From the NCBI GenBank assembly GCA_910890315.1, contig CAJVGD010000006.1, forward strand, positions 310,001 through 374,000: DNA of 64,000 nt, given 5' to 3'. The stretch comes from Serendipita indica DSM 11827. Its lineage: Eukaryota > Basidiomycota > Agaricomycetes > Sebacinales > Serendipitaceae. A model generated the notes under the pieces. That model was not told the DNA's origin, made no database searches, and worked only from the letters and a program-made list of their open reading frames with translations. Positions 1 to 57,088 of the stretch are shown one piece after another. The position numbers were made by a program, and so were the translations under genes. The number at the start of each line of letters is the position of its first letter. Within the stretch, counting starts at the first letter, position 1.

Positions 1-732
1 ACTACGTAGATTCGGCTTTTGATCTGTTCGTTCCAGCGGCGAAGTTTTGTCATTGGACCCCCAATCTCTATATAGAAGTGCGGAAATGACCCTTTCGGAC
101 CCAGGGAATCCATCTTCCGAGAATAGAGAAAGATGGCAATAAACGCTTCTCGACTAGTAAACCCCGGGATAGCTTGAAATCGGTCAGATCCAAGCATATG
201 TACAAGCAGTGCATACGGTAGTGATAAGGCACAGGCTCTGGTGCTGAACCGTAGATAACAGCATCAACAATTTTCGTGGCTGTCTATTCAGGTTGAGTAC
301 GACTTCCTGCATCCAGTTATACTAACAATAGCCTGGTGGGTTACCGATTTGAACTTCGCTAATCTTTTTGAGGCCTCCGCATCTTTTTGCTCGGCATTTT
401 CTATTCGAGACTTCCAGTCAATCGAGGGTTGTTGTCCTATTTCGATTGCGCGCTCCTTGACGCCTTCCCATTTCGGTTCACATGGTTTTTTGATGAAGTC
501 GAGGAAGAGATTTAGGTCGCTTGGGTTTGTCAGAAATCTGTATTCAATCGACCAGAACATACCTCGGGGAACATTGTCTTTTAGCAGGAGGAATCTCTTC
601 GATACTAGCAGCAAGTTCCCAGATTGTAAACACCCTATCCATTAACCCTCGAGGAGAGGGGGATAGCTTGACACGATGGAAAGTGAGTATACCATTGGGA
701 CTTGCGTCCATCGTTTGTTGCTTGTTGCTCAC
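1..732 (-). pseudogene. Family A protein, copy 1 (5' part; runs off window start)
   Basis: I do not recognise this family. It is called A because three copies occur here (also 6803-8548 and 47586-49170). The copy reads right to left and its 3' part lies outside the window. Shared segments can be followed: an N-terminal FTIWELAASIEE stretch (about 545-700), the block around KRFLLLKDNVPRG and EYRFLTNPSDLNLFLDF (about 480-610), a charged helix ending ASKRLAKFKS (about 350-420), and a SREAFIAIFLYSR block (about 105-165). The first two blocks lie in different frames at about 570-600 with no room for an intron, so this copy looks frameshifted relative to the others. It is divergent from B copy 1. 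Function unknown. Confidence 0.5.
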
Positions 733-819
733 AAGGTGCTAGTTACTGCTCCTGTTTGTTGGTAGTACTCGCCAAGTGCTTTAGACCACAATATAGGCCT
801 CACCTGGACCATCGACAAG

Positions 820-946
820 CCTCGTGTTGTGCTAGATTTCCGGGTGATAAAGGGTGGCCGGCCTGATGGGGCGCCAATAAACCTGCAATCGAAGCCCGAT
901 CACGACTTGATGAACTGCTGGTTATTTCCAGGTTCACAGGCCTACC
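820..946 (+). other. Conserved reading frame in the A/B spacer, copy 1
   Basis: The spacer between A and B keeps an open frame on the B strand with about 40 alignable codons. It starts near PRVVLDFRVIKGG and ends DLMNCWLFPGSQAY. The same frame occurs at 8638-8745 and 49199-49309. It has no ATG of its own, so it is probably an upstream exon of B whose start I could not place. A conserved non-coding spacer is possible, since one opposite-strand frame is also open in copy 2. Confidence 0.4.
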
Positions 947-1027
947 CTCACCTGCCTCGCTGAATCCCGCAGATATCAATATAAGCTAGCATAAAATGAT
1001 ATGCGATCCCTTTTCCTGGGGAACTAG

Positions 1028-3039
1028 ATGGCTTCAGGATCTCTGCAACCGGGGGCAGAACCACTCGCAAGAGGAAGATCCTACTCAGTTTTTGAAGCTC
1101 TCCTTGGGCGGGATCATCAGACAGCAAAGGAGCGAGACGGACCTTTCCGCCTTATCCGCTGGCTACTGGAAGTGACAACGAACGCTGCACTTAGAGCCCA
1201 AGTTAACATCATCACAACCTTTGCATTCATTCGAGCTGCACGACAGGAATGTGTCCGACTCGAAAACGCAATAAATGGCACCCTGGGGCAAGAAACACCC
1301 AGTGTCTCGTTTGAGGGATTCAAGAAAACTAAAGAGGGCATAAGCAAGCTAGAAGAGTGCGCAAGCGGTTTTCAAATCCTCTAAGACTGACCTTTCTGCC
1401 AGTATTTTGCTCGAAGAATGGGAGTATACCGTCGAGCCAAACATTTTCGAGTCCAAATCAGTCCTTGAGTGTCGCAAAAGTGTCGAATCATGGGAGCGAA
1501 ACCGTGCGAAAGTCCTTGACAAATTTCTCAGAGTGTCTGTTTTGTCACCGGGTGGGGCAAGACCCAACCCCGAAGTTTGTCCTCTTATTCGTCCTGAAAT
1601 TCCCTCACTGATCACGAGGCTCTCGTTCAGACTCTTTGGGAACCTCGTCGTGATGATGCACTTGTTCTGCGTACCATGGTAGAGCATATCGAACCAGAGC
1701 GTATAATTATCGAGTGAGTGTTGATGCTTAGGGCCTTTAATATATCTAACGGGCCAATTAGCGAGAGGCTGAACCAGTCTCGTACTATTTTGCGAAGTCT
1801 TATGGGCTTAGCAGAACGCGCACAACCAGTCCTAAATAGAGAGGTGAGGTATTGAAGGGTTAGCCTATCCCTTAATGACACGAAAATCCTATAGAGGACT
1901 ACTTATGCCATCAAGACAGCTTGGTTCATCCGCGTCGCGATCGAAGAGTCCAAAAGTGTCAATACAAGATATCTTCGCCGAAGATACCTTCAAGGTTCAG
2001 ACGTTTGGGCCACTGCATTAGAGTACGTTGGCAATTGACCTATCTTCGGTCCACCTCACAAACGTCAGCCTCGCATTATCCATAGCAGGAGATAATGTTG
2101 GGATGGGGGAAGTGGCGCGAAAGTATCAGACGTTCGTGGACAAATTACTTGTGAGTCAGTCTGAAAGGTATATGCATGATTATAACTGGTTAATAGCGTA
2201 TTTATCGATTCAAATTGTTACGGACAGTCCTAATTTCTGGCAGACACGGACAGCACCCTTTCTCCTCAAGCTCTCCTTGATCTCTTCGCAGCCGGCGCTC
2301 ATGTGTCTCGTCCATTCATGTCCCAGAATCACGCATTAGTCGAACTCTGCTATGAACTTGGACAGCAGTACAGCAGCACTGGTGTGGGAGACTTGGATAA
2401 ACTTGAAGCAGTACAAGAGTGAGTAATACAGGTGGTGATTTGTGCTTCAATCTGATGTCATACAGTGCTATTTCGCGGTGTTTGGACGCAGCAAACGCTG
2501 CTCGACGAGAACAGGTGAACTTGGCGACGATGCAGCAGCCCAACAAAGGCGCCATTGAGCAAGCGTATCGGATTGCTTATGAATCGGTCAAAGCTGCACT
2601 TCGAAGTTTATCTAGTCCCGAAATCAATACCATCGACGCCACCATGACACAGGCCAGAGCAGAGGATGAAGAGCGTATGAGAGCGTACCAAGAAAGATTC
2701 GCAAAGGTGCGTTCTACCCGCCGCAAGAGATTTGATTGACAGTCTTCACAGGCCCAGTTGACGCAGCCGAGCACCAGAATGGTTCGAGTGAGGATGGGTA
2801 ACCGAGACAGTGAGCCAGAAAAACGCACATTACCCGAGTATAACTAACGCGCTGGTATAGTCATCGTCCCAGATGATACACGGATTGCCGCGCTAATCTG
2901 GAGCGAGCAGCAGAATACACGGCAGAGAATTATTGGGATCAGGAGAGGTGGTGCCCTCGTTGAGCCTCATCGGACGATTGGCGAGATTGCTGGAGGTGCT
3001 GGTGCTCTGCAGCTCGACATGCAGTTTGCTACTTCTTGA
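1028..3039 (+). CDS. Family B protein, copy 1, with C-terminal ubiquitin-like domain
   Basis: Unrecognised family with three copies here. The model joins about nine exons: 1028-1370 (MASGSLQPGAE onward), then ILLEEWEYTVEPN, TLWEPRRDDALVLRTM, ERLNQSRTILRSLMGLAE, RTTYAIKTAWFIRVAIEE, a KYQTFVDKLL exon, and three 3' exons. The protein is mostly helical and charged, with possible coiled coil around residues 70-115. The last exons (2779-3036) encode about 85 residues starting MVRVRMGNRDIIVPDDTRI and ending RTIGEIAGGAGALQLDMQF. Their order of strands and loops resembles ubiquitin (a first strand, a VxPxDTI-like turn, then RIIGIRRGG and RTIGEI in place of RLIFAGK and RTLSDY). There is no terminal Gly-Gly. 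The frame is open throughout. Bases 2234-3194 are about 99% identical to copy 2. The start is the first ATG of the exon; true coding may begin upstream. Confidence 0.6.
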
Positions 3040-3194
3040 CCGAAACGTATTGAATTTGTTGCCGCGAATCTCAATGTATGCATCCCCGCAGCGTTTGGAC
3101 AGCGGAATCCCGAGAGGACTGAGAATGATCGCCTATCGGAGGCGGAAGAAGGATTTGACGCGAGGCGATAGGACTGTGCCGCTTGGTAGGCTAT
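2234..3194. repeat. Near-identical ~960-base tract, partner of 10104-11063
   Basis: This tract matches 10104-11063 with roughly a dozen substitutions and one single-base indel, counted by eye. Introns are included. Upstream the B genes are clearly diverged, and identity stops abruptly just after GGTAGGCTATGA on the 3' side, about 155 bases beyond the B stop codon. Confidence 0.9.
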
Positions 3195-4117
3195 GAGCTT
3201 CGCCGTAGTAACCAGATCACGCTGATTGCGCGCTGCTACAGCTCGTGAGATAGGGAATCTATGAAGAATTATGATGAAATGGGATTTTGGCTGCATGAAA
3301 CTCACTTGTTTGGGGCTACTCTGGTCCAAAAGTAGAGAGTCCATGAGAAATTTGTACAAGTCTCCGTCGTCTAGAGTCGTTTTAAAGAGAAGAGATTGCA
3401 TCCATTCGTCGCGTAGTCGTGGCGAATCCAGAATTGTCACGTATAGCCATTCTACATCTAGCCGTAGTTCATAGTAATCCACGCCTGAGATGCCTTGGCG
3501 TATCCCGGTCGGAATATAATCCTTGTTACATTGCCGCACAACGGCCCACAATTCCTGTGGCGTCATGCCCGTCCAGTTCTGAAGTAGACCAAGGCAGCGC
3601 TCGTGAAGCAGTGGATATAGCGATGCCGCACAGCTGAATGTTCGCCTATCAGATTCACGACGAACCGTCCTCCATCTCTGACCAGCCTTTAAGCCTCTGA
3701 TGAGTCGCGTCTGCCCAGGTGAGAATCGGCGAAGGTTGTCGACAATAGGTGCATCCCCGGTGCGTTCGAGCAGTTCTTTGAATATCTGTTGATCGTCTTC
3801 TCCAAACGGTCCGACAATCGCGACCTCGTCTGTATATCGCTGATCGTCCTCATCGAGATGTAGCGTCCGCTTTGCCTCGGCACTAGGTTCGTCATGTCTC
3901 CCAGCTACTCGACTGTTGTTCAACCAGGATTCAATTTCTCGCTGGTGAGCGTCACCGTTGGTCCGTCTGGCGTGGCGGACAGACCGACCCATAGGTAAAC
4001 GTCGACGTAGGAGCAGCCTCCACAGATCTTGGTGAGATGAGCATGAAGGCTCTGAACGGAGCTGATATTTTCCCTTACAATGCAGTACTCTTCGGAGATG
4101 CTGTATTGCTCAGCCAT
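3191..4117 (-). CDS. Hypothetical protein, orphan
   Basis: I do not recognise this protein. The model starts at the ATG at 4117 (MAEQYSISEEYCIVREN) and reads CSYVDVYLW up to a GT-AG intron. It continues REIESWLNNSRVAGRHDE and runs open to SSPKQ. A strong GTGAGT donor there joins a short last exon (QRAISVIWLLRRSS) whose TAG sits at 3191-3193. The predicted product is about 270 residues, soluble, charged, with no signal peptide or membrane segment. If the last intron is ignored, the frame stays open to 2967, antisense to the end of B, which I regard as fortuitous. The stop codon falls exactly at the edge of the duplicated tract, so the 3' end may have been remade when that tract arrived. Confidence 0.5.
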
Positions 4118-4511
4118 GTGGTTGGAGTCCAATGGGTGGTTAATTTTGTCGTGTCCAAAGCCAATTCATACTTTGACCCGATAGTCACCTCTGTTCCGCC
4201 GTAACGTGACGCAGGTGATTGCGACAGTCCGGTATCTGCCTCGGGGTCTGGTGATTATTGCACTTAGTCGAGGGCGAGCAAGGGTCGTGCGCGGTTTCCA
4301 TGAGGCCTCCCCTAATCTTAACCAGCAATCTAATCCCTTCTTGGCAAGAGAGCATGACCAGGATATATTTGCGACTGTATTATACCTCTTCCTATAGTTA
4401 ACCAGCCAGGACGCCGAACGATTCTCTGTCCTCGAGGCGGCGGTTTACTTATATATCTGCCGGCTGCCTCTGATCCAGTTCCCACTTGTCCCGGGTATCA
4501 CCAATTCCAAC
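4118..4511. other. Intergenic, divergent spacer
   Basis: This spacer lies between the orphan minus gene and the first membrane-protein gene. A TATA-like TTATATAT at about 4449 precedes the plus-strand ATG by about 60 bases. The only open frame (4206-4397) looks like chance. Confidence 0.4.
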
Positions 4512-5412
4512 ATGGAATCACAAAACGGGCCTGTACCTCCCAGCCCCGCCCAGATCGAAAAGGCCGTGTACGAATGTATGTGACTCTACTTATGATCTCG
4601 CGTTCTGATTTTCCTGGATAGACCCATATGCCAAAATCGTCCAGCAATACTTGGATGGGTGGATTAAAACACTTAATAGTGGCACTGTCGTTGTGCGTAT
4701 GACTATATTCACGCGGAGTGAACTAATCCGCTTCGCAAATCATTGTCTAGAGCACCCTATTGTCAGCCGTTGCTACTGCCTTCTTCATTCACATCCAAGA
4801 AAAGATTGGTTAGTATGACTCGTCTTCTAATACCTTGCTCTTACCACTTTCTTCTGCGTCACCTTCTTCCACTCAAACTGCAGCCAATAACTCGTCCCCC
4901 AGTACCATGCCCTCAACACCGTCCTCGACGGCTCCTTCCTCCCAAACTGCAACGACACGGGCACTCCTCGTCTTCGCCTACGCTTCCATATTCGCCAACT
5001 GCACAGCAGCAATCACGTCTTTCTATCTCGCGAACTATTTGCTGTATATTCCGATTCAAATCTCACAAAAGATGTTTCGTCAATCATCTGTGGACTTTAA
5101 CATCAACAATCTTATAACGCATATTAATAGCCAAATTGGATACGCCGATTGGCGCATGGTTCGAATTTATTGTAAGCCTGTATCATCATAATAACACGTA
5201 ACTGATGCATTACAGGGCAGTTTACATCCTTCTTCGGATTCATTTCCGTCTTTGTAGAGCTTGCGCTCTACGGATATCAATTCGAGACCAGTCGAGACGT
5301 CAAGATCGCCCTTGGATTCTTGACCGTAATGGGAGCTATTCCTCTGGTCGCTTCTGTCTACATTATCATTCAACGGATTCGTAGCCTATTGAACGAGAAT
5401 CCTACTCTGTGA
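4512..5412 (+). CDS. Multi-pass membrane protein, tandem paralog 1
   Basis: Unrecognised membrane protein. Exons read MESQNGPVPPSPAQIEKAV, then YPYAKIVQQYLDGWIKTLN, then STLLSAVATAFFIHIQEKIG. An exon rich in Ser, Thr and Pro follows (about 4850-5170), and the last exon begins WQFTSFFGFISVFVELALYG. Membrane segments are visible at LLSAVATAFFIHI, ALLVFAYASIFANCTAAI, FTSFFGFISVFVELALYG and ALGFLTVMGAIPLVASVY. The protein ends NENPTL. The exon border near 4795-4850 is not certain. Its downstream neighbour at 6041-6727 has the same plan: a hydrophobic segment followed by HIQEKI/HVQEKI, a second membrane segment, an IPLKIS/IPIQIS motif and two C-terminal segments. Such short membrane proteins form lineage-specific families in agaricomycetes. 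No function can be assigned. Confidence 0.65.
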
Positions 5413-6040
5413 AACTCTGGTGCGAAAAGGGACTGAAATCAACTATTCCATGTGAGTAATTGACCTAATCTATAGAGACAAAGAGTGTCTAATTCCAGTA
5501 CGACACTGGGCAAAAGGAGGTATTCATAGACTTAGACGTATAAAAGCGCTCAGTGCAACGGCCTATATCATATACAGTACTGTTTTACAAGCCATTGCAT
5601 CAATTTTTAGTGCCCTTCGTACCTGTTCTGATTCGCCGCCTACTATTAGACATATTGAGCATTCTGTAAATAAATGAAGACTCCGTTTCGCGTTTATTAA
5701 TTCAATCACGAGTCTCTTGTGCTTAGTGCATACCCGGTGCGCACCCCAAGTCTCTAACACTAGGATCGAACAGATGGCCCAAACGGCATGCTCGGGAGAT
5801 ATGTAGCCTCGGCTCTGTAGTCTTGCTGACGCCCCGATATTGCTCTTGGCTTCTTTATGAAGTAGAGTTATGCATATGCACAGGTAAAGTGGAAGGCGGT
5901 GAACCTAACCCTCGGGATTGTCCATAACAGCAAGATGGCCTTAAGGCATGACAGCCAGCCCAGGTCGCTTAAGCCCTCGAGGGAGATCCCCTACTATTTC
6001 CACACTATGACGTCCAATCGTGACCAATTGACCCAGCCAG
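5413..6040. other. Intergenic
   Basis: Spacer between the two tandem membrane-protein genes. I see no credible gene; the short minus frame at 5563-5760 lacks support. Confidence 0.4.
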
Positions 6041-6727
6041 GTGATTGAACAACTTATCGAGGCACATATTGATACTTACGCTCAGTTTGCAGCACGTGTT
6101 CTCAATCTTGTCAAAATTCATGTACTGGGTTGGTCCAGCATGTACAACAAGGCAACCGTCATGGTAGGCGCTCTCTCTCACAGTGCTGCGATGATGTTTA
6201 CGGTGACAAAAGAGTGCTATTATGGTGCCTTTGTCGTGGAGTCTCTTCGCCCACGTGCAGGAGAAGATTCAACAAATCCAAGAGGCAGGTCTCCCCACAA
6301 ACTCGATCACGCTGCTCGCTCTATCCATCATGAGTTATCTCACTATAATATGCAATTCATACGCGGCAATTATGGCTTTCATTAACGCAGAAAGGATGTC
6401 CCAGATACCGTTGAAGATTTCCCAAACGGCCGCAGACAAACCGGATGTCGGGGCAATTCGAGGAGATGTTGTCACTATCATCATGTACCATGTCAAGGTG
6501 CAATTTTGGTCTCTTCTAAGGGCTTACTGTACGTCTGGATGCCGCTCGGACGGCGTCGGCTGACCTTAGCACAAGGGTTCTTCTACTTCATTACTGGCTA
6601 TCTTAGCATCTGGATCGAACTCAACTTGTATGTCTGGGTGATTACAGGAAGTTTTCCACTGCAATTATTCGCATCGACGTCGACAGGGGTGGCCTTGCTA
6701 CCCATAGGGCTCTTCTGGCTAGGATGA
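6041..6727 (+). CDS. Multi-pass membrane protein, tandem paralog 2
   Basis: Paralog of the gene at 4512-5412. Recognisable exons carry YAQFAARVLNLVKIHVLG, then a membrane segment around VGALSHSAAMMF, then FAHVQEKIQQIQEAGLPTN. Next come a second segment (LLALSIMSYLTIICNSY), MSQIPLKISQTAAD, YHVKVQFWSLLRAY, and a last exon with two segments (FYFITGYLSIWIELNLYVW and LFASTSTGVALLPIGLFW). The stop is at 6725-6727. The 5' exon is not fixed: the frame is open from 6041, but the paralog has an extra N-terminal exon that may lie upstream. Tandem arrangement, same strand and shared motif order indicate local duplication. Function unknown. Confidence 0.55.
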
Positions 6728-6802
6728 ATTACGTCCTACATAGTCTACAGTGGCAGAATGATTGAATAGTCTTGTACATGCTCTAGGATATATTAATCGA
6801 AA

Positions 6803-8548
6803 TCAGCCCCAAAACTTCCATTTGCTTTTTTTTGATGGCCGGCGAGGTACAAAGTCTGTTTTTGCAGAACTCTCCGGTCCCTCTGTTGAGGCAGCCGAGG
6901 CACCACTCGGCACTGTATGAAGACTAGTCCGTGTGGTTGGTCCGATCGCCATTTCTACTTTTCTATTGGGTGTCTGCGGTTGATTTTGTGGGTTTGAAGC
7001 CCGGGACTTGACCTCGATAACTTCAGTAGGCCGAGTGGGATGGGCACCATCGCTACGCACATCTGGAGGAATGTGCGCTGATTTAGCCACAATTCCCGTT
7101 CGAATAGCCGGAGATCCGAGTCCAGTAGGAGTCGATGATGGAGCATCTGTGGTGGTACGTTGTGGATTTAATGGTGGAGAGGATGGATTGATACCTCCCC
7201 CGATCTGGATGCTTGTAATGGATGACGTAGAATTACGAGCTAGATGGAGAGTGGTTTCCCCTGGTGAAACCAGATTCCTAGCCCCACTGGTGGGCGTCTG
7301 CGATCGGCTGGCCGGTGCTGTGGGCGGTCTGGCAATCTGGGGGTCCACTTCTGTCCCAACCGATACTGGTGAGGAGGATGATGCTACTTGTTCCCCCAGT
7401 GAAGGAGGCAAGTGTTCGTATTGCCTGCAGATATCGAGGTGATTCCAATTCGATTTGTTGGACCAATCCTTTGGCCACTTCGGATCACCGGAATCGCCGA
7501 GACCTCGGAACATCCATTTACAGTCTATATCACCATCGGTTTTGGGGCTCCAAATGTTGTTTATGGCTTGAGTGAGATTCGTGAACCTGCCCTTCATTTC
7601 TTTATCGTCGTGTTTGAACAACGCAAACTCGGATGTAGGCGATCTCAGCTCTGTTAGATGACCTTTTTGACCTATAATATATGAGAGATCGCTTAACAAT
7701 GCTATGGGATTACCTTTGAGATGATAAGTTTCACCCTGGTCATGAGAGAATATGAGTCGGCCTTCAGAAGAGTTGTTTTTGACTGCAATCCAGTCCTCAG
7801 GCACTTCAAAGTAACCTCTACTCATGACGACGTATAGTCGCTTTGTAATTTTGCCCTTCCACTCGCACAGCTGATTCTTCTTCGTGTCCAGCTCATAAAA
7901 ATGTGGTGACGATCCTTGGGGTCCACCTTTATGCCCATTACCTTTATGCCGATTAAATAAGAACATGGAAATGAACCCTTCCCGACTGATGAGTCCTGGG
8001 ACGGCTTCAGATGGTCAGAACTGAGGATGTACAGGCTTGCAAAGCTATTACGTACTGTAGGTGTGCTTTTCACAGGTTTTAATGAGACCGGAGGGATCAA
8101 CAACGAAAATGGAGCCATAGGAATCAACATCAACTTCTTTCCGTGCTAGCTGTTTCTGTCGGGATTGAGCGACAATACGAGGAGCCGGCTCGGACCTACA
8201 AGTTTTGAAGCAGCTGCTGTTAGTATGTCTCCGGCTTTTTGATCTTTCTTCTCGGCCCCTTGCATTTTTTGTCTCCACTCTGGAAACTGGTCGTCAACGT
8301 ATAGACTTGCCGCACTCCATGAGCCTTTATTTGGTGTGTGCATGAATTTGAATAAAGGATCCGGGCTCCTTGTAATCATTAGCATAAGATATTAGAAGCC
8401 TCAACTCGTACCGCGTTGGTACGACGCGCCTCTCGTCAATCTCGACGATGAGATCCCCAATGAAAACAATCCTGTCCGCATACAAGCGGTCATATCGAGC
8501 CAGCGGGGCAATTATTGGGTTGGTTATACCTGAGAAATTGTTGCTCAT
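6803..8548 (-). CDS. Family A protein, copy 2 (best-preserved copy)
   Basis: Unrecognised family and the reference copy here. It starts at 8548 with MSNNFSGITNPIIAPLARYD, continues through DRIVFIGDLIVEIDERRVVP and RYELRLLISYANDY, then DPLFKFMHTPNKGSWSAASL and a charged helix (QKMQGAEKKDQKAGDILTAA). Next come a RQKQLARKEVDVDSYGSIFV exon, then AVPGLISREGFISMFLFNR, and one long 3' exon from 7966 down. This exon has a conserved part (RLYVVMSRGYFEVPEDW, EGRLIFSHDQGETYHLKG, TDGDIDCKWMFRG). It ends in about 190 residues rich in Pro, Ser and Thr, finishing KKSKWKFWG. No signal peptide or membrane segment is seen. Exon borders between 7970 and 8330 are approximate. It faces B copy 2 across about 280 bases, suggesting shared control. 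The fold and function are unknown. Confidence 0.6.
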
Positions 8549-8637
8549 TGTCCTTCCTAGTCAACCGCGAGGGCAGAGTATAGGATTATGTGGTGTGGCC
8601 AATCCGTCTCCCACGACATATGCCTCACCTGGACCTC

Positions 8638-8745
8638 GTGGCGTTCCCGATTTCTTGGTGATAAAGAGTGATGGACCTGACCAGGGGGAAGCGTCCGATC
8701 ACGGTTTGATAAGCTGCTGGTTATGTCCAACTGCACAGGCCTACC
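8638..8745 (+). other. Conserved reading frame in the A/B spacer, copy 2
   Basis: Open plus-strand frame reading VPDFLVIKSDGP, DHGLISCWLCPTAQAY and on for a few codons. It aligns codon by codon with the spacers of copies 1 and 3 (shared DF, P, DH, L, CWL and AQA positions). No in-frame ATG lies close upstream. It is a probable missing 5' exon of B. Confidence 0.4.
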
Positions 8746-8828
8746 TCAGTATCCTCGTTGAATCTTGCAGATGTTGATATAAACCCGCAAAAGGATGCGG
8801 TTTACCTGTTCCCAGTACCGAAGGGACA

Positions 8829-10908
8829 ATGGATAGACCTCCATATTCCGGGGCAAGACTGCAAGGGAGTAGAACGTCAGATGGACGTTTTGGTGCCAGC
8901 AGAGAGGGTGGGAGGGAAACAAAATACTCCATTTTTGACGATCTTCTTGGACAAGACCATCAGAGGGCAAAGGAGCAAGGGGGACTGTTTCCTCTTCTTC
9001 GGTGTTTACTAGAAGTGACGACGCACACTGCCCTTGGGGCGCATGTCAACATTCTCACTACCCTTGCATTCGTTCGAGCTGCAAGACAGGAATGCGCCCG
9101 ACTCGAAAACTCGATGAATGGCCCACAGCAAGACACGCTCGGCGCCTCATTAGCTCTGTTTAGGGACAATATAGAGTGCATAAAACGCCTGGAAAAGTGA
9201 GTATTGGGTTTATTCGAGGGCTTTTCTGTATAATCTTAATTTGCGGCAGTATCCTGCTCGAGGATTGGGACCACACCAATGACTCCAGTATTTTCGACTC
9301 CAAATCGGTTCTCGAGTGTCGAACAAGTATCGATTTGTGGGAGCAAAATCGCACACAGGTTGTCAACAAGCTTCTCAGGGTCTCTGAGTTGTCGGGAGAA
9401 TCAAGGCCCGACCCAGATGTTCGTTCTCTTCCTCCTCCGGAATTCGCCTCGTTAATCGTGCATATCCGCTGCAGAATCTCTGGGAGGCCCGTCGTGATGA
9501 TGCACTCATTCTGCGTACCATGGTGGAGCATATCCCGACAGACAGCGGAGTTACTGAGTGAGTCAATAGACGTTTGAGTCTTCGAACATATCTAAGCCCC
9601 TATGAAGTGACAACTTCAAACAATCCCACAATGCTTTACAGAATCTTATGGCCTTGGCGGAAAGTGAAAAGCAAGGAGCAGGAGGTGTACAATACAGTCT
9701 TGAAAGAAAGGCAAGAGTAGTAAAGAACCGCGTCGAGCTCTACTGACGCATAGAATCTTGTAGAGGACTGCATACGCCATCAAAGCGGCTTGGCTCATCC
9801 GTGTTACAGTCGAAGAGTCCAAAAATAAATCTTTCACGAAACCTCTCCGCCGAAGGTACCTTCGACGCACAGATGTTTGGGCTACCGCATATGAGTACGT
9901 CCAGTATTGAGATCCCTGAGATTTACTAATGATGAACAGCTTTGTATCATCCATAGCTAATGGTAACGTCGCTCCCACAGAAGTGGAGCAGAAGTATCAG
10001 ACCTTTGTGTACAAGTTACTCGTAAGTCAATATACAGGGAGAATTTCTGATTATAACACCTTTGTAGAGTGCGTTTGTATTAAGTCGCTACGGATGACCC
10101 TGATTTCTGGCAGACACGGACAGCACCCTTTCTCCTCAAGCTCTCCTAGATCTCTTCGCAGCCGGCGCTCATGTGTCTCGTCCATTCATGTCCCAGAATC
10201 ACGCATTAGTCGAACTCTGCTATGAACTTGGACAGCAGTACAGCAGCACTGGTGTGGGAGACTTGGACAAACTTGAAGCAGTACAAGAGTGAGTAATACA
10301 GGTGGTGATTTGTGCTTCAATCTGATGTCATACAGTGCTATTTCACGGTGTTTGGACGCAGCAAACGCTGCTCGACGAGAACAGGTGAACTTGGCGACGA
10401 TGCAGCAGCCCAACAAAGGCGCCATTGAGCAAGCGTATCGGATTGCTTATGAATCGGTCAAAGCTGCACTTCGAAGTTTATCTAGTCCCGAAATCAATAC
10501 CATCGACGCCACCATGACACAGGCCAGAGCAGAGGATGAAGAGCGTATGAGAGCGTACCAAGAAAGATTCGCAAAAGTGCGTTCTACTCGCCGCAAGAGA
10601 TTTGATTGACAGTCTTCACAGGCCCAGTTGACGCAGCCGAGCACCAGAATGGTTCGAGTGAGGATGGGTAACCGAGACAGTGAGCCAGAAAACGCACATT
10701 ACCCGAGCATAACTAACGCGCTGGTATAGTCATCGTCCCAGATGATACACGGATTGCCGCGCTCATCTGGAGCGAGCAACAGAATACACGGCAGAGAATT
10801 ATTGGGATCAGGAGAGGTGGTGTCCTCGTTGAGCCTCATCGGACGATTGGCGAGATTGCTGGAGGTGCTGGTGCTCTGCAGCTCGACATGCAGTTTGCTA
10901 CTTCTTGA
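8829..10908 (+). CDS. Family B protein, copy 2, with C-terminal ubiquitin-like domain
   Basis: Paralog of the gene at 1028-3039. The model starts MDRPPYSGARLQGSRTSDG and keeps the same exon order: a CLLEVTTHTALGAHVNIL helical exon, ILLEDWDHTNDSSIFDSKS, an exon opening NLWEARRDDALILRTMVEH, LMALAESEKQGAGG, RTAYAIKAAWLIRVTVEE, FVSSIANGNVAPTEVEQKYQ, and the 3' block ending with the ubiquitin-like domain (10649-10905). The intron at 9711-9763 uses a GC donor (AAG|GCAAGA) where copy 3 has AAG|GTAAGA. The intron before NLWEARRDD has the same position in all three copies. From 10104 on the gene is almost identical to copy 1. The start is inferred from copy 3, which has MGRHPYPGARTQGSRR at the same place. 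Function unknown. Confidence 0.6.
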
Positions 10909-11063
10909 CCGAAACGTATTGAATTTGTTCCCGCGAATCTCAATGTATGCATCCCCGCAGCGTTTGGACAGCGGAATCCCGAGAGGACTGAGAATGATCG
11001 CCTATCGGAGGCGGAAGAAGGATTTGACGCGAGGCGATAGGACTGTGCCGCTTGGTAGGCTAT
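10104..11063. repeat. Near-identical ~960-base tract, partner of 2234-3194
   Basis: Second copy of the tract described at 2234-3194, in direct orientation 7.87 kb away. It ends at GGTAGGCTATGA, beyond which the two loci share nothing. The following ~155 bases form the upstream region of the urate oxidase gene. Confidence 0.9.
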
Positions 11064-11220
11064 GACGCCCCACCAAAACGACACCTTATCGCACATCGAA
11101 ATTGGCTTTAAGGCCTCGACCAGCCAGGCAGGTCCCGCCAAACTTGACCTCGACCACAACATACGGCTACTTTGTGGAAAGTTCTGACAAGTAAACGACG
11201 TTTAGGAATCTTCGAAGACC

Positions 11221-45312: not shown

Positions 45313-45784
45313 CGGTACTCGAGAACCTCAGATGAGACGCTCTCTTTTACGGCCTAGATGGTCTAGTGAGACGAATAGAGGATCAAAAGGAGAATAAAAA
45401 ATAAAATAAAAAGGTCCAAATATTATCTGATAGTACGCACCCGTTCATGAGTCACACGTCTGATTCCTTCAAGAGCAGAGGCACAAAGGGCGTGATCAGA
45501 AGCCCGATACCAGAGGATGCAATTGCCTATTACGAGGCATTCCAAGCAAGGTCGCCTTCTAGTCTTTTGGTGGCTACCCAAGACTCACCGCTGAAGTCCT
45601 ATTAGTTGGACGACCCTGAAAGATGGCTATGTGATCTACTTCGCAGTCTCGCGAACTGAAGCAACATAAACTTTTCGTGAGAGAAACTACTTTCGAGTAA
45701 AGCTTTGGAATTCTTCGTATTATGTCCCCCATATTGCAAGTTAGACTTGTATAGGAAATTGATGGCGCACTGCCTTATGATTCT

Positions 45785-46087
45785 TCGACCAGTGGTCCCA
45801 GACGGCTGTGGCTCATCTTCCAGTGCCAACGACACTCTGCGGCCAGAGACTCTAGCCAGTTCACCAAGGGCCCCAGCTCAAAGCTTTCTTTCTACGGAAT
45901 TGCTTACATGATGCAAGATAGTTTGTACCCAGACTGCAACTAGAACCTTGCTTCGGTCATTCTTGACGTCCAACTCATATCACAGCTCACGACGCGCATA
46001 CGTCTCTAGTACATCTACTTGTTTATTTGGTGATCATGTTACTCATATATTGCAGTCATAGCGACTTAATCGGACACAGCTCGTGCC
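45785..46087 (+). pseudogene. Decayed fragment of the GH17 gene
   Basis: This stretch aligns base by base with 55910-56213 inside the intact GH17 gene, at roughly 75-80% identity by eye. It includes the end of one exon (GSSSSAND-like, the QFTKDPNLKQSFYGIAY homolog, DALYPDC homolog), the intron with TTGCAG acceptor, and the start of the next exon. Substitutions have created stops and shifted the frame. Because the intron is kept, it arose by DNA duplication and not by reverse transcription. Confidence 0.85.
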
Positions 46088-46202
46088 CGCCGCTCTGTGC
46101 TCTGCTGCGTCAACTGGACATAGGAAGACTGTCAATCAAATGTCTTGCAGCGACTAGAGCGCACACCCCCGCACCTTTCTTGTTATCCTCCCATGCGCTC
46201 TT

Positions 46203-47579
46203 TACCCTCTGCTTTGGTCTGAGAGGCTGCTGTCGGTGTCTGGGAGAAGTCAGGGCGTTCGTAGCAATTTGTACAGACATACGCTACAAACTGGTTATAA
46301 TCATGCACACCTCGTTTAGGCTGACTCACGAGTAATTTGTCCACAAATGTCTGATACTTTCGCTCCACTTCTGCGATATTCCCGCGAGCTATGGACGATA
46401 CGAGACTGTATTCTGTGAATGGTATAAAAAACGGGTCAATTCCGGACGTACTCTAATGTAGCGGCCCAAACGTCTGGGCCTTGGAGGTACGCTCGACGAA
46501 CATTTCTTGTATTGACATTTCCTGACTCTTCAATCGCAGCACGGATGAAGGAAGCTGCTTTGATCGCATAGGTAGTCCTCTAGGTGGTTTTCGCGTTTGC
46601 AAGACATAGGCTGACCATTTAACATCTTACCTTTCTATCCAGGACTGGTGGTGCGCGTTCCACGAGGCCCATAAGACTTCGCAAAATAGTGCGAGATTGG
46701 TTCAATTTCTCGCTAATGGGTCTTTAGATATACTCAAAGCTCTAAATGTCCACACTCACTCGATAATTATTGCGTCCCATTGGATATCCTCTACCATGGT
46801 ACGCAGAATAAGTGCATCATCGGTACGTGCTTCCCAGAGAGTCTGCAATGTATATCGCGAATAAAAGAGTGAATCCCGGAGGAGGGAAAGAACAAACATC
46901 TGGGTCAATGGGCCTCGGTCCTCCCGACAACTTCGAGATCCGGAGAAGCTTGTCGACGACCATTCGGCGATGTTGCTCCCACGAATTGATACTTTGTCGG
47001 CACTCGAGAACCGATTTGGATTCAAAAATGTTGGAGTCGATGGTGTGATCCCAATTCTCGAGCAAAATTCTGGCCAAAAATCAGATTTTAGAGGACTTGG
47101 GAATCCTTTACTTGCTCCTCTAGCTGAAGCATGCGGCTTATAGCCTGTTTGAACCGCTCGAATGAGACACTGGGTGTTTCTTGCCCGAGTGTGCTATTCA
47201 TCGCGTTCTCAAGTCGGACGCATTCCTGTTGCGCAGCTCGAATGAATGCAAACGTCGTGAGAATGTTGACATGCGCCTCAAGGACAGTGTTTAGCGCCAC
47301 CTCTAGTAAACACCGGATCAGGATAGATGCTCCTTCTCGCTCCTTTGCACTCTGGTGGCCTTGCCCAAGAATAGCGTCGAAAATGGAGCACGTTCTTTCG
47401 CTCCCACTCTCTTTGCCGATTCCATCGCGTATATCTGGCCTCCTACTCCCTTGCGTTCTTGCCCCAGGATATGGATGTCTACCCATCGACTCTTTTGTCT
47501 CCGGGAATAGGTACTTTGGATCGTTTTGCTGCTTTGTATCAACATCTGCAAGATTCAGCGAGGCTACGATGTAGGGCAT
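46203..47579 (-). pseudogene. Family B, copy 3, lacking the 3' part
   Basis: Minus-strand B paralog starting MPYIVASLNLADVDTKQQND and running MGRHPYPGARTQGSRRPDIR, LLEVALNTVLEAHVNILTTF, ARILLENWDHTIDSNIFESK, TLWEARTDDALILRTMVEDI, EKLNQSRTILRSLMGLVE, RTTYAIKAASFIRAAIEE and KYQTFVDKLLVSQP. Exon borders match copies 1 and 2, and the frame is open. Homology stops about 46203, just past the intron acceptor whose exon begins ACACCGACAGCA. The helical 3' exons and the ubiquitin-like domain are therefore absent. It could still make a shortened protein. The lost end abuts the broken GH17 piece. Confidence 0.6.
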
Positions 47580-47585
47580 AGTAAA

Positions 47586-49170
47586 CTAGAACTGACCAAA
47601 AATCTCTCCAAAGAAGCCCTGTTTTGTGGGCCCTCTTTCCAATAGTGGAGTATGATCCGTAGCAGTGTATACGGATTCTACTTCTGCAGCAGCATTTGGT
47701 GACCAAGTTACATTAGGAACCGATGCTGGAGTATCCAGGGTAATGATTTGCAGGGTTTTAAGAGGTGAAGAGAGTGATTTGATATCTCCCTTGATCTGAA
47801 TAATTGCAATAGATGGCGTAGCAGTATGAACTGAGTAGATATCAACCGTCCCAGATGGAACCAGCGTTTCCGCACTGGCAAAGGTCTGCGGTCGACTGAA
47901 TTGACTTGTGGCAACCGATACTACTGAGGCACCAGAATGAGAACGATGAAAGGGAAAGAAGTTCCCATCCTCTCCATCCTTGTCCTCTTCGTCATCGTCG
48001 TTATTTTCATCATCCCCTTCAGGAGATGGTTTTGCGTATTCTCCGGGGAGCAAAGGCAAGACCCGACGATTCCAACCCAAGGGTTTGTCCGACCAACTTT
48101 CTGGCCAATTTAGAACACCGGAATGATGGCATTGTAACGTCCATTTACCATCTATATCGCCATCGGTCTCCCAAATTTTCTCCATGACTTCGGTGAGATT
48201 CTCGAAACTGCCCTCCATTTGCATTTCGGGGTATTTGAATAAGGAAACCCTGGATGGTGGCGGATTCAGCGCAAATATACGACCGCCACGATCTATAATC
48301 TATGAGTAACTACTCGAATATGCTGTGGATGTACCTTTGAGATGATGAACTCTGTTACGAGAGAATATAAGTCGACCTTCAATAGGGTCGTTTCCGGCTG
48401 TAGTCCAGTCCACTTGAAAATATCCCCTACTCATCACAACGTATAGCACATTTTCAACGCTGCCTTTCCACCCACGCAGCTCTTTCCTGTTGTTCTCGAT
48501 ATAGAAATGTGGTAATGATCCCAGAGGTGCATATTCGTTGTATCGACTAAATAAGAAGATGGCAATAAATGCCTCTCGACTGACAAGTCCCGGGACGGCT
48601 CCAAGGCGGTCAGGACAAGGTATTTGTCAAGGACGTTACGTACTGTATACGTAAGTCTTGGGTGTAATAGAAGAGCCATAGCATCTCGCAACAACTTCGC
48701 GCCGTGCTAGTCGTTTCTGTTGGGATTGAGGGACCATGCCAGCATCTATCTTGTTCTACCTACAAGCTTCGAACCAACTGTTGTTAGGATGCCTTGAGCT
48801 TGTCGATCTCTCTCCTCGGCCTCTTGCATTTTTGGTCTCCACGCTTGCAGCGGATATTTCGGGTCAAGTACATATTGCCTTGCTTCGTACCATGTGGCTT
48901 CATCTGGTCGGTGCATGAATTGAAATAAAGGATCCAGGTCACTTGTAATCATTAGCATGAATTATTTGCAAAGTTCCATTCGTACGCCATTGGTACAATG
49001 TACCCTTCGTCGATGGTGACAATGAGCTCCCAAGTGAAAACAACTCTGTACACATGATGCCGGGCATAACGAGAGAATGGGACGGTAAACGGGTCGCCTC
49101 CAATTAGACCCTGCGCTGTCATCTCGAGAGCAGCTTGTGGGATCAGACAGTGTGGGTCAAATCCCTCCAA
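47586..49170 (-). CDS. Family A protein, copy 3 (inverted relative to B)
   Basis: Unrecognised family. It starts MEGFDPHCLIPQAALEM at 49170, with RVVFTWELIVTIDEGYIVP, then DLDPLFQFMHRPDEATWYEA and RPKMQEAEERDRQAQGILTT. Then come QKRLARREVVARCYGSS, AVPGLVSREAFIAIFLFSR, NVLYVVMSRGYFQVDW, EGRLIFSRNRVHHLKG, ENLTEVMEKIWETDGDID and a tail with an Asp/Glu run (DDENNDDDEEDKDGEDG) ending FFGEIFGQF. Blocks match copy 2 in order. Intron borders between 48300 and 48950 are approximate. The 3' end lies 7 bases from the B copy 3 ATG on the same strand, unlike copies 1 and 2 where A and B diverge. Its C terminus may have been cut by the inversion. Confidence 0.55.
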
Positions 49171-49198
49171 TTATAGGCCCCACCCAGAGTGTCAGTGA

Positions 49199-49309
49199 GC
49201 CTCCCGGTGTTCTAGATTTCCTGATGATAAGGGGTGGCGGAACTGATGAGGAAGAAGCACCTGATCACAATTTGATAAGCTGCTGGCTATGTCCAATTGC
49301 ACAGGCCTA
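49199..49309 (+). other. Conserved A/B spacer frame, copy 3, detached from B
   Basis: Plus-strand frame reading VSEPPGVLDFLMIRGG and DHNLISCWLCPIAQA, homologous to 820-946 and 8638-8745. Homology to the other spacers breaks at CACAGGCCTA (about 49309). The continuation (CCCTACATCGTAGCC) is at 47577 at the start of B copy 3, which fixes the inversion breakpoints. Confidence 0.6.
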
Positions 49310-50656
49310 GACCATCTGCAATACTACGCAGTTATTCTGAGAGCAGGGCCTTGTTTTACCAGCCAGAACGGCCCTATGTATGGGTAGCAAGGCAGCTTTT
49401 GTCGCCATAGATGCAAAGGCTTGCAGCTGAAAACTCTCTGTGACAAGCTCGATCCGAAGGCTAAGATTCCCAGCAATGAACTTCGAAAGCAAGCAGGAAA
49501 GGAAATTGCGCAATTTGACCAACAGCCACTTGGCAAATTTGTCCAGCAAATACCACGGCCTTTCACGCACGGAAGCTAGTATCCTTACCCAACTCCGCAT
49601 ATACCTCTCAATGTATACCTCAGCTGTATCTGGACTGTGGACTTGCTCGTATGCACAAGATGTCAAATCCCAGAGACCGCAGTACATTCCCTTTTATGTG
49701 AGAAAGGTACACCGTGCAGTAAAAACAGCTCCGAGAGGCCGTAGGTCAATATATCGATTCAATCTTGCTTCGTTGCTTACCGCTCCCAAAGTCATCAAGA
49801 AGATCTTCGAGTATATCTACGCAACCAATCGTTTCCGGCATTACCAACCAAGGACGGAGTTGATTCGACTACCAGCAATGCATCATCCGATTCATCACCT
49901 CGATATCTCAACTCAAACTCTACCCTCTGAATCCTTCTAGGTCATCTGGGACCATATACTTTATTCAATTTCGCTATTCGACTACGTTATTTGTTCACAC
50001 TATTCAACGCATCAAGACTTCTCAAGAATTCATCGACATGCACACCCCTGAAGACCACGCTTTCCATCTAACCTCAAACGCATCAAGCAGCATACCACTG
50101 GCATCATCACCGCAATTGACATGGCTCCTTCCCGTACTGTCCCCTCTGCTTTCCCTTCGGCCCAGAGTGGCTCATGTATGTAAATTTCGCATGGAATATG
50201 CACAAAAATGCAAGAATGTCATACTTTAATTAGTAATTGGGAACTTTGAAACGAAATCTTTATCTTTCCTTATTTACGGACAATCAGAACAGGCAACAAG
50301 AGAGCACCAGATGATTCATGGAATAATCTTGGATAGCATTAGTGTGTACGACGTATGATCCGTTGCGCTGATGGTTCCCACAAGTGAGGCAATCAAGTAG
50401 CGACGCCTGTTTCGTTCGGGTGGACTCTCAGGTAACGATAAAAGTACTTTCTGAGCACATGATATCCTGTATATCCTCTCACGAAAGCACAGGTGCTTTG
50501 CATCACCAGACCCATTGGCAATCGCAAAAGCCGTTACATTGAAGGCCGGAAGGAGAGTGCACAGAAGAATGAATAGTTCTAGTTTGCTTGGGATCTTTAC
50601 AATAGTACGCCACAAATAATGACTAGGCAGCGTTGATCGCGGCACTCTTGAATGGA
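49310..50656. other. Intergenic with coding-like relic
   Basis: About 1.35 kb. Near 49440-49570 the plus strand reads KLDPKAKIPSNELRKQAG then IAQFDQQPLGKFVQQIPRPF before stops, which looks like an eroded exon of an unknown gene. The remainder shows no supported gene. Confidence 0.35.
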
Positions 50657-53600
50657 TCAAACCATCCAAGCTGACCCTTCTCCAAATGGTTTATCCCACG
50701 AAACTCGCTCGGTAGGATTCGCTTCTTCGTCTACTGCTTTCCGCAAGTACTCGACCTCCTTGTCTGCTGTAGACTGAGTGAGCTCTGCAATCTTCTGTTC
50801 TAGAACAGGCAGTTTCAACGGCATCGATGCCCCCGTGGCTAACGCCATATTCAAGAGCTCGAGGACGTTTGCATTCAACGGTTCAATGCTCAGAGCCTTT
50901 AGTTATAATCAGCCAAACTTAACAGCGCAATACAAGCGCGGGTGCTTACTTCGTGGTAGCGCTGAATGGCCTGATGATAGTCCATCTGCATGTGATAAAC
51001 CATCCCTAACGATGCCAGCGCGTTGGCGTGCCTCGGTTCGACGGTGAGAACCTTTTCGTACGCTTTCTCTGCCTCTGCAAAGTGTCTGTGCGAAAAATTA
51101 GATCCATATCAAAGTTGAAACTCGTACTTACCCCAGTTTGCGGTGAGCAGTTCCCAGGTTGCAATAGGTTGCTAGCCAATATTGCTCTGATGCTTGCGAG
51201 ACTTTTGCTAACTCGAGCGCCTTCTCAAAGAACATTACTGCATCGAGATAGCTGGTCTAATCAGCATCATAGAGGAGGGATAGGGAATAGAGCTTACTTT
51301 CCCTCGAGGTACTCAACGACGCCTTGCTCGTTATAGACAAGAGGGTCCGAATCGCACATGGACTGTGCAGTTTTCAGCGCGTCTGCAGCTAGGTTTAGAT
51401 GAGAAAGTGTGATTTGCTCCATCCCGATGAACAAATGCGGCAAATGTGACCTGCCAATATTCAACTTCGGGCCTCTGAGCCACACCTCGCCTACCCTTTG
51501 AAGAGCCGCGCACAAGTCGAGTACGCTGTAATGGCATGCTCATGTTCACCTTCCTTGGCAAACGTATGTGCAAATGCCACCCATCCGGGTGCATGTCGAG
51601 GGTCCATGATGGTGGATTTACTGAGATACTGCTTTGCTTCTCGCCATTTGGAGATGACAAGATAGTAGATGCCGACAGCGTACCAACTCATTGGCGATTC
51701 AGGCTCTTTATCGACGAGTTCGTGTGCCAGGATAAATAGTCGCGAGTGAAGATGTCGCAGATGATACATGCATGCAATGTGAATGGGAAGCGTCGGTAGA
51801 TGTATAGTCGAGATATCCAAGATGCTGCATTCATCCCAGGTCAGCGGAAAACGGCGAGTTTGATGGACGTACCGAGAAGTAACAACGAATGCGTCGACGA
51901 ACCGCAGTTGTGTATAAAGAGAATCCGCGAGTGTGTAAAGTATATCACAGTTCTGTCCGAGATCAAATTCGTCGGTAAGCTGCCTTCGAGCCTGTGATAT
52001 TTCTTCGGAATGCTTGATCTGCAGCCATGATTGAGTACCACCTTCAAGAGCGCAGTAGAGTTTCACCTTTTTGAGACGGACTGTGTACATTAGCCGTATA
52101 AAGTCGGCGTCCTCTGGAGTTTGTTCCTTGTACTTCAGCCCTTGAATCAACTCCCACTCTGCATCTTGAATCAGTTGAAGAGAAAGAAAGAAACAAGAAA
52201 GGGACCTTCGTCTACTGTCAGCATCTGACATTGAACGAGCATGTTATAAGCCTCGAAACACTTTATGTCCAATGCCAGAGCCTCCAAGAAGTTTTGTTTG
52301 GCTCTTTCGCTCCGATTAAGGCGCATATAGAGAATACCGCGCAAATAGCACATCGAGGCTTCGAGCTTTTTGAATTTAGGCCGAGCGTTTGGCTGGGATC
52401 TTGTTCTTACCTTTAAACCCCCATCACGATTCGCGACATGTGCGCCCGATTCAGCTGTTCCTGTTATAAGGCTAGACTTAGCTACGAAGAGATAGCGACT
52501 TACAGGTATCTCGAAACGGGTTCTCCTCGCCTAGTACCTCGAGAGCTTCTGTCCATTTGCCCAGACGGACCTTAATGAATGGTTAAAATCCAAGCAGCTT
52601 GGTCTATCCCCGACTCACTTGACACTGCGCGGCTAGATACCGACACATGACGCTGACGTCGACTAACCGGGTCGGTTTGGCTCCCTGGGTGCCTTGTATC
52701 CCCGAAACATCTCCAGGTTCGTGCAGTGGCTCAAGCTCGCCCGTGAGTGCAAACCTCTCTGCTCTGGCTAGTGACACTTAGCTGAACAACCTCAAGACTA
52801 ATGAGCCTCACCTTCTTCCAGTTTTCTTCCGTGGTCCATGTCGTCCATTGTATCCAAATCGATGACTTGCTTCATCGACTGCGGACCATCAAACGTAAAA
52901 GACGAGTCAAGATTGGGTTTGGGTAAGACATCTCCCTTGGACCTGTTCTCTCTTCCTGGAAGTTGTAGGCGTGGAACGGCTGTTGACATTGGGAGTTTGA
53001 ACGTAAAGTTTGTCGGACGCGTCGAAGCCAGGAAAGGGTCGTCTTGGAGACCCCCTTTTGTCTTTCCCTTTTATTGCTGATGTATGATTGCCGCCATTAC
53101 TCAAGGTGTGACGATGCTGGGCGTGGTATGGTGTGACAAACGGTTGAGAGCCCTGGCTCCCTAGCCCCAACCCGAGACCAAACGAAGCCGAAGCTAGTTT
53201 TTGTTCTCCTGGTTCTTCCTCTTCTTCTCCATCCTCATCCGATTCTGACGACTGTGTTATCGTAAAGGGTTTAGTTAGGAGACGCTCTGCTCGGGCGTAT
53301 TCTCCAGTTTGAAAATGAACTTGGGCGAGCCAAAATGCGTCGCTAGGATCATCTGTGCATAATAAGCGCAACTCTCTCACTTTGGAATTGCATACTTGTC
53401 CATGTGAGCACCTTGTCGCCCCAGAAAGCCGCCGTTTCGTATAAATGCTGGGTCATCGCATCGTGCCGCCATAGTCTCATTCGATCAACGAGAGTCCATT
53501 CTTCTTCATCCTCTTCGTCACTAGCAGTGAATTCTGATTCCTCGATGGAGCCGATGGAAGTGAATCCTACAGGTTCCGACTTGACGGTTTCTAGGTAGAC

Positions 53601-55342: not shown

Positions 55343-57088
55343 ATGAGCTCACCATCTCCTCAACTCAGAGATGCCCAAAACTATGCAAGAGATCGCCCGT
55401 CGTGGGGAGACCGTCCACCGTCCAGAGAGGATTTGGACAATTATTTTGACCACGAATTGCCCGCTCCTCACCGTCTTTCTGGATCCTATCTGAGTCCGTC
55501 TCACTCTCCGCGCGCATCGATGGAAAATCTGGCCAACAAGCCGCTCCCTTTGCCTGCCTTTGGCGGCACTGGCCCACGCTATCTGTCTCCGCTCGCCGCC
55601 GCAGAGGCCACGGCGACAGAAGGCGCAGGTATGCGCAATTCGAACTACTCGGAGATTAGCATGGTCGGCCTCAACAGCGGCCGGCCTCCTGTTCGACGGA
55701 GTACCTGGCTAGAAAAAGAGCAGACGCATCACCGGAAGAATCACAGACTCGTACGTAGCATATGTTATATGCCGGGATATCGTTGACACGCTTTTCTAGT
55801 TCATTATAGTCTGTTCCACCCTGACGATCCTCATCGTCCTCGGTGTTTCCCTCGGAGTCTTTTTCGGCACACGAAATAGCAAAAACAATACCGCAGCGGC
55901 AAGTGATCCTTCGACTACTGGTACCAGCGGTGGAGGTGGCTCTGGCTCATCTTCCGGTGCCAACGATACTGTGGCCGGAGACCCTAGCCAGTTCACCAAG
56001 GACCCCAATTTAAAGCAATCCTTCTACGGCATTGCTTATACGATGCAAGACGCTTTGTACCCCGACTGCAACGAGAACCTTGCCTCGGTTATTCTCGACG
56101 TCCAACTCATGTCACAATTGACCACGCGGATACGTCTCTAGTACGTCCGCTTGTTTCTAATGATACACAGTACTCATGTATTGCAGTGGCAGCGACTGTA
56201 ATCAGACCCAGCTCGTGCTCGAGGCCATCAAGCAAACGAAAGTGGATATGAAGATCAATGCGGCTATCTATATTCCGGTGGACGATGATGTAGCATACGC
56301 TCGACAACGCGACGCTCTGCAAAATGCGCTTCAGACGTACGGGGTAGACAATATCGAAGGGATCACGGTCGGCAGTGAGTCCGGTTCTCTGGAGATTGAC
56401 TGTACACTAATTTATTTGCAAAGACGAATTTATTTTAAATTACGTGACGAAGTACGGAGGTGATGGAGCGAGTGCAGATAGCGCTGTTGGTAGGAGGGCG
56501 GCGGCGCTCCTCAGCGAGAAGATTACCGAGACCCGGCAGTTCCTCAGTTCTCTGGGACACTCTGACGTACCAGTAGGAAGTGCTGATGCAGTGGGTCATT
56601 ACATTCACCTATCATGTCGAGACTCACGCGGCCGAAACTAGGGTGCCTACTTCAACAACGACCTGCTCAGAGTAATCGACTACGGCCTATCAAACGTACA
56701 TGCCTGGTTTGCTCCTACAACAGCAGCTGGAGCTGCTGCCTGGACGAATCAATTCTTCCAGGAGACCAACGTCGCTGCCGCAGCAGCAGTGAGCAACCAC
56801 CCCAGGATGGTCATCGCCGAAACCGGATGGCCGACTCATTCGAGTGACGCTGCACATGAAAACTCGGGTGCTGGAGTAGGAGGCGAAGCATCGGTCGCAA
56901 ATCTCCAGACCTTTTTGGATACGTTTGTGTGCCAAGCGAACAGCGCGGGAACACCGTATTACATGTTTGAATACTCCGATGTCGGATGGAAGGACCGTAT
57001 TTATGGGGGTGTCGAGGGGTACTGGGGCCTGTTTGATCAACATCGCAAACTAAAGGACCTCACGATTCCAGACTGCGCACACCAATAG
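55343..57088 (+). CDS. Membrane-anchored GH17 beta-1,3-glucanase
   Basis: Type II membrane protein with a GH17 glucanase domain outside, acting on cell-wall beta-1,3-glucan. The cytosolic part starts MSSPSPQLRDAQNYARDRPS. The membrane anchor is FIIVCSTLTILIVLGVSLGV, followed by a Ser/Gly linker. The GH17 barrel begins FYGIAYTMQDALYPDC, then VILDVQLMSQLTTRIRLYGS. The acid/base Glu is in GITVGNEFILN (split by an intron) and the nucleophile Glu in MVIAETGWPTHSS. Further markers are NVHAWFAPTTAAGAAAWTN and GVEGYWGLFDQHRKLKDL. Five exons. A decayed copy of its middle part lies at 45785-46087. Confidence 0.92.

Follow-up and report, generated by a model that had tools for sequence, protein, structure and literature searches.

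The locus described here raises the question of whether A and B, two adjacent genes that recur together and that a sequence-only reading had described as a divergent module present three times, work as partners under common control or are simply neighbors carried along by duplication. The window, meaning the whole 64,000-nucleotide stretch that was analyzed (C6:310001-374000), belongs to one 24.7 Mb genome of 55 contigs, on which all results rest; coordinates given without a contig name are window positions. Gene models were built with a custom spliced protein-to-DNA aligner, and exon ends were compared by eye with those of paralogs. Together with the searches described below, this placed the following A and B genes:

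1..711, minus strand: 5' part of A1, with start codon at 711 and exons 711-563, 519-345, 283-217 and 172 to the window edge (spliced model and phases)
6803..8548, minus strand: A2, with exons 8548-8412, 8368-8200, 8155-8056, 8004-7714 and 7671-6803; 521 aa, intact (spliced model and phases)
47586..49122, minus strand: A3, with exons 49122-48986, 48941-48764, 48716-48644, 48598-48335 and 48292-47586; 452 aa, intact
1028..3039, plus strand: B1, 10 exons, 510 aa, intact (spliced model and phases)
8829..10908, plus strand: B2, intact, 530 aa in 10 exons; GC donor at intron 4 (by eye)
46202..47486, minus strand: B3, 3'-truncated, open frame of 317 aa, six introns at family positions
46097..46201, minus strand: remnant of the B3 3' region past its stop (sequence match)
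C6:391492-393376: B4 (own-genome search and alignment; no start-to-stop model)
about C6:393890-395800: B5 (own-genome search and alignment; no start-to-stop model)

All three A copies yielded intact five-exon models, open from start codon to stop codon, in which the introns are of the GT-AG type and have phases 2,0,1,1 in every copy; A1 runs past the left window edge to C6:309336 (664 bp beyond) and, completed from the flanking sequence, encodes 394 aa. B1 and B2 share nine introns of identical phase (2,0,2,0,2,1,2,0,1). B3 retains the first six introns common to B1 and B2 and then reaches a stop at 317 aa, with about the last 200 residues missing; by eye, an internal deletion fuses its exon 7 with the final part of exon 8. 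The short introns of both genes (42-89 bp) are consistent with a fungus.

Searches of the genome with single proteins, run exon by exon and scoring the best candidates, a scheme that may miss distant paralogs, placed A at three sites only (8 of 8 and 8 of 8 exon matches, E up to 10) and B at five C6 loci (23 of 24 and 19 of 19 matches), with one outlier at C2:163530 (E 0.51). The A3 query matched A2 at 3.0e-29, far above chance, and the B1 query reached B3 exon 1 at 4.9e-32 and B2 at 3.7e-25 (exon 1) and 1.3e-51 (3' part). B4 and B5, which lie in tandem, were weak from the B1 search alone (E 0.013-0.17); by alignment they are 28 and 26% identical to B1, with nine introns at most 3 residues from the B1 sites and no stops. 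The spliced aligner recovered no recognizable A near them (scores of 36-47 vs 208 for A1 and 547 for A3). The A/B copies were found in one stretch of ~86 kb. The earlier proposal that A and B had been kept together holds insofar as all three A genes found adjoin a B; it does not extend to B4 and B5, which stand without a recognizable A, or to copy 3, which is rearranged with A intact and B broken.

Copies 1 and 2 lie head to head, A on the minus and B on the plus strand, as first described, with start codons 316 and 280 bp apart. In copy 3 both genes are on the minus strand, A3 (49122-47586) upstream of B3 (47486-46202) with 99 bp between them; the threefold module survives as A/B linkage at three places, and not as three divergent pairs, copy 3 being same-strand with a truncated B. 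The spacers and their relics are as follows:

712..1027: 316-bp spacer between the divergent A1 and B1 (copy 1)
8549..8828: 280-bp spacer between the divergent A2 and B2 (copy 2)
47503..47567, minus strand: B-side piece of the former spacer, between the A3 stop and B3 (sequence match)

The spacer of copy 3 is split: its A side (8634-8743 in copy 2) matches 49200-49309 directly, and its B side (8749-8813) matches 47503-47567 in inverted orientation. A check for mobile elements found 11 inverted-repeat pairs of at least 60 nt in the window, all of them matches between copies 1-2 and copy 3. Separately, a stretch of ~320 bp, 80% identical, occurs at 45778-46089, adjoining the broken B3, and at 55904-56221.

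The repeated unit proved larger than the A/B module that had been taken as duplicated: it comprises five genes, D-C1-C2-A-B, in tandem at about C6:305.6-313.2 and 313.2-321.07 kb, and on this arrangement copies 1 and 2 are the halves of one tandem segmental duplication. Their common layout goes back to one event and does not count as independent evidence of A-B teamwork, an idea first drawn from joint duplication and weakened here, since C1, C2 and D were copied too. The neighboring genes in the window are as follows:

2967..4117, minus strand: D, open frame, no family; exon model uncertain (three competing); overlaps the B1 end
4512..5412, plus strand: C1, modeled at 225 aa, a hydrophobic (membrane) protein
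5935..6765, plus strand: C2, modeled at 207 aa, distantly related to C1
49379..49480, minus strand: C2 remnant beside A3, at the far end of copy 3 (sequence match; 12-residue match)

C1 gave a partial match to DUF6535 (PF20153) at E 0.03 and 14.6 bits, under the 23.9-bit cut-off; this weak likeness to DUF6535 proteins concerns the neighbor C1 only and is silent on A or B. The copy-1 C2 (C6:308552-309288) can be aligned to its copy-2 counterpart only if one stop and one frameshift are allowed, and is probably broken. Genes for uricase, a TCP-1 chaperonin, a 60S acidic ribosomal protein and a protein kinase lie between copies 2 and 3, and the description of the surroundings as accessory DNA fits the ends only. 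In 2-kb windows, G+C is 47-51% at 1-10000 and 46001-52000 vs 50-58% elsewhere in the window. Left of the module, at C6:299.7-305.1 kb, a tandem gene is present in two copies, with an inverted relative ~6 kb further on (291.5-293.5 kb); frames of one of these copies and of the inverted relative match methyltransferase families. Another local duplication lies at C6:420.1-422.9 kb, most of its matching frames being 50-75% alike.

Alignment of the spacers revealed an ungapped block of 47 bp in each copy:

898..944: 47-bp block, copy 1
8697..8743: 47-bp block, copy 2
49263..49309: 47-bp block, copy 3, upstream of A3

The three copies of the block are the same at 37 of 47 positions, with pairwise identities of 39/47 (1-2), 38/47 (1-3) and 43/47 (2-3). 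For comparison, the A introns are identical at 93/172 (1-2), 95/172 (1-3) and 123/173 (2-3) positions and the whole spacer at 177/273 (1-2); because the A introns of copies 2 and 3 are also alike, the block stands out less for that pair, and clearly for copy 1. Scanning the genome with a 24-base pattern from the block, with at most 3 mismatches tolerated, gave exactly three sites (control, 0); as the pattern was built from these copies, their recovery is by construction, and the result is its absence elsewhere, B4 and B5 included. The distance from the block is 84-86 bp to B1 and B2 and 141-187 bp to the A genes, and the block accompanies A in each copy, the split copy 3 included. We infer that it is probably the core of a shared A/B promoter, and its presence in three copies makes the co-control suggested earlier plausible; it may also belong to A alone.

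A promoter element of A's own is part of the strongest competing explanation, in which A and B are mere neighbors without joint function and a segmental duplication copied the stretch that holds them. In compact genomes, short spacers between divergent genes are common, and the inclusion of C1, C2 and D in the duplicated unit agrees with such an account, as do the constant company of block and A, the persistence of an intact A3 without an intact B, and the occurrence of B4 and B5 with neither a recognizable A nor the block. Mutual similarity between A and B is not clear by shuffling: five of six comparisons were reached by 14-48 of 200 shuffles and A3-B1 by 1 of 200. Two observations weigh against mere proximity, namely that all three A genes found adjoin a B, and that the broken one of the three B genes in the window is B3, the one split from the block; we regard this explanation as unlikely, albeit a serious contender.

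Neither protein could be assigned to a recognized family, in agreement with the sequence-only reading: no match exceeded the cut-off in the libraries used. Against Pfam (E up to 10), A2 matched nothing, and there were three matches for A1 and A3 (E 0.14-0.18), one for B1 (0.043) and three for B5 (0.2-4), none reaching the curated cut-off, and B4 had one at E 0.01 and 16 bits, under its cut-off of 20.8; the families weakly matched by the A and B proteins differ from one another. NCBIfam and PADLOC, searched with A2 and B2 only, gave no match at E 0.1. Profile searches of the PDB (E up to 10) returned no chain for A and three for B (0.13-0.81), the first being a homeobox protein at E 0.13, not significant. 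Pattern searches of collections with few or no fungi gave 94 viral matches for A, and 53 viral and 33 prokaryote matches for B, with 0 confirmed relatives for either. Both proteins are free of strongly hydrophobic stretches (top 19-residue mean of 0.67-1.49 vs 2.17 for C1), and A2 ends in an S/T/P-rich tail of 191 aa, 55% of it S, T, P, G, N and Q. On the preferred reading, A and B represent two unrelated, intron-rich families that are new to the libraries used and predicted to be soluble.

Structure prediction, put forward as a check along with the initial description, was carried out on unspliced pieces only and was poor, with pLDDT 40.5 for the A core and 58 for the B last exon. A structure search with the A core model gave 395 matches, none of which reached E 0.001, and their TM-scores, normalized by query length, were 0.09-0.18; a PH or EVH1 domain is named in the titles of 4 of the 50 matches listed. 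The PH/EVH1-like fold is a seven-stranded barrel with a helix cap; given a model at noise level, a PH-like A is not claimed. A ubiquitin-like C-terminus of B was not supported. Against a ubiquitin-like profile, B1, B4 and B5 scored -1.9, -0.2 and 3.1 bits, values as high being found in 2460, 593 and 43 of 3000 shuffles and in 232, 28 and 1 of 681 unrelated frames, respectively, with only B5 leaning ubiquitin-like; hhalign gave a probability of 1.6% over 16 columns, and the B last exon, modeled by itself (58 aa, without the first strand), was predicted with strands where a beta-grasp fold would be expected to have a helix.

Among known systems, the locus resembles the divergently transcribed HD1/HD2 pair of basidiomycetes in its head-to-head genes, short spacer and several divergent copies. 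The divergent short spacer is present in copies 1 and 2 but absent in copy 3, and, unlike the HD pair, A and B contain no homeodomain that could be found, with no Homeobox family in their Pfam lists (E up to 10). A search of the genome with PF05920, the only such family used, had its strongest match on another contig (C40:91688) and also detected C2:1020369(+) at 28.4 bits, over the cut-off of 24, and C2:1018727(-) at 19.3 bits, under it. This divergent pair of homeodomain matches (C2:1018727-1020455) is possibly the HD mating-type locus; A/B is not supported in that role. A second likeness is to Podospora het-B (Bh/Bp), presented in PMC10890737 as two adjacent unrelated genes whose versions are strongly divergent; A/B shares both traits, but no common domain was found, and the A/B versions are paralogs on one contig.

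The copies have diverged unequally. In conserved parts, dS is 0.60 for A2-A3 and 1.82 for A1-A2, and is saturated for A1-A3; in the B 5' part it is 0.55 for B2-B3, 0.82 for B1-B3 and 1.05 for B1-B2, values that come from three copies only and are poorly measured near 1 or above. By dS, copy 2 is nearest to copy 3 in both genes, whereas in amino-acid identity B1-B3 (68%) exceeds B2-B3 (60%). The 3' part of B1 and B2 has a dS of 0.04 over 214 codons, with one amino-acid difference, and falls within a pair of nearly identical tracts:

2244..3185, plus strand: B 3' tract of copy 1, exons 7-10 and downstream
10114..11054, plus strand: B 3' tract of copy 2

In 200-column windows, the tandem units are 38-62% identical across A and the spacer, 91-95% over most of D and 98-99% along the greater part of the B end (0.98-0.99 within C6:312386-313185). 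As such a patchwork, with near-identical edges around a very divergent A and B 5' part, is not expected from one duplication alone, we infer a later exchange; recent gene conversion of the B 3' tract between copies 1 and 2 is probable. A codon model with free omega improved on omega = 1, one parameter apart, by a lnL gain of 13.9 for A (2 delta lnL 27.7; 259 codons) and of 27.3 for the B 5' part (2 delta lnL 54.6; 286 codons). Pairwise estimates of omega are 0.25-0.58 across those conserved parts in which dS is finite, 0.70 for the A2-A3 tail and 0.05 for the B 3' part, values indicating that both A and B are constrained, A less so. Since their split, B3 has accumulated 27 unique amino-acid changes vs 53 in B2 (chi2 8.45), and A2 25 vs 24 in A3, which is no difference; the smaller number in B3 than in B2 is odd for a dead gene.

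A very divergent core flanked by nearly identical edges is also what a two-gene allorecognition or conflict locus might display, with A and the N-terminal part of B providing divergent specificity and the C-terminal part of B a shared output kept uniform by conversion. The two adjacent genes and highly divergent variants of Podospora het-B, as presented in PMC10890737, offer a precedent; the Pfam lists, however, contain no HET, STAND, TIR or HeLo family, PADLOC shows none for A2 and B2, and omega is below 1 wherever measurable. Such a locus is quite improbable. Very improbable, too, is a self/non-self locus with a private promoter element, a hyperdivergent A and B N-terminus and a homogenized B C-terminus, in which the truncated B3 would serve as a decoy, an idea prompted by its remaining part having changed less than that of B2. 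Least probable of all, copies 1 and 2 could be divergent haplotypes of one locus misassembled in tandem. The near-identical edges (most of D and the 3' end of B) on either side of a divergent core would allow this, and two haplotypes would be conceivable if this fungus resembles Piriformospora indica, which PMC3192844 describes as being either diploid or dikaryotic and as having two mating-type alleles. Against it, an assembler would presumably have had no shared sequence with which to join the B1 end to D2, duplication within the cluster is evident from copy 3, and between haplotypes a dS at or above 1 is very high.

The explanation that we prefer, and consider reasonably though not strongly probable, is a local birth-and-death cluster of lineage-restricted genes, in which A and B are transcribed divergently from one short spacer with the 47-bp block at its core. 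An older A/B pair would have been tandemly duplicated inside the five-gene block D-C1-C2-A-B, and a pair related to copy 2 would also have been placed 35-40 kb away. In copy 3, A would have been inverted along with the 47-bp block, with putative breakpoints in the spacer and behind A, and B3, separated from the block, would have lost its 3' part. Recent gene conversion would keep the 3' end of B, along with most of D, near-identical in copies 1 and 2, the A gene and the B 5' part having diverged. As a guess, A and B might be co-expressed intracellular partners in an accessory role, A perhaps with a sheet-rich core and a disordered tail, and B perhaps mostly helical. The agreement in dS between A2-A3 (0.60) and B2-B3 (0.55) argues for this history; an intact A3 without an adjoining intact B, and B4 and B5 without an A, argue against the explanation.

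The arrangement itself is fairly ordinary, being a further example of duplicated, lineage-restricted genes clustered locally; what is new here is the 47-bp spacer block and the identity patchwork between copies 1 and 2. The analysis adds two protein families unrecognized by the libraries used, with good gene models and a conserved candidate promoter block. If A and B act together under diversity selection, they would be candidate recognition genes in a basidiomycete.
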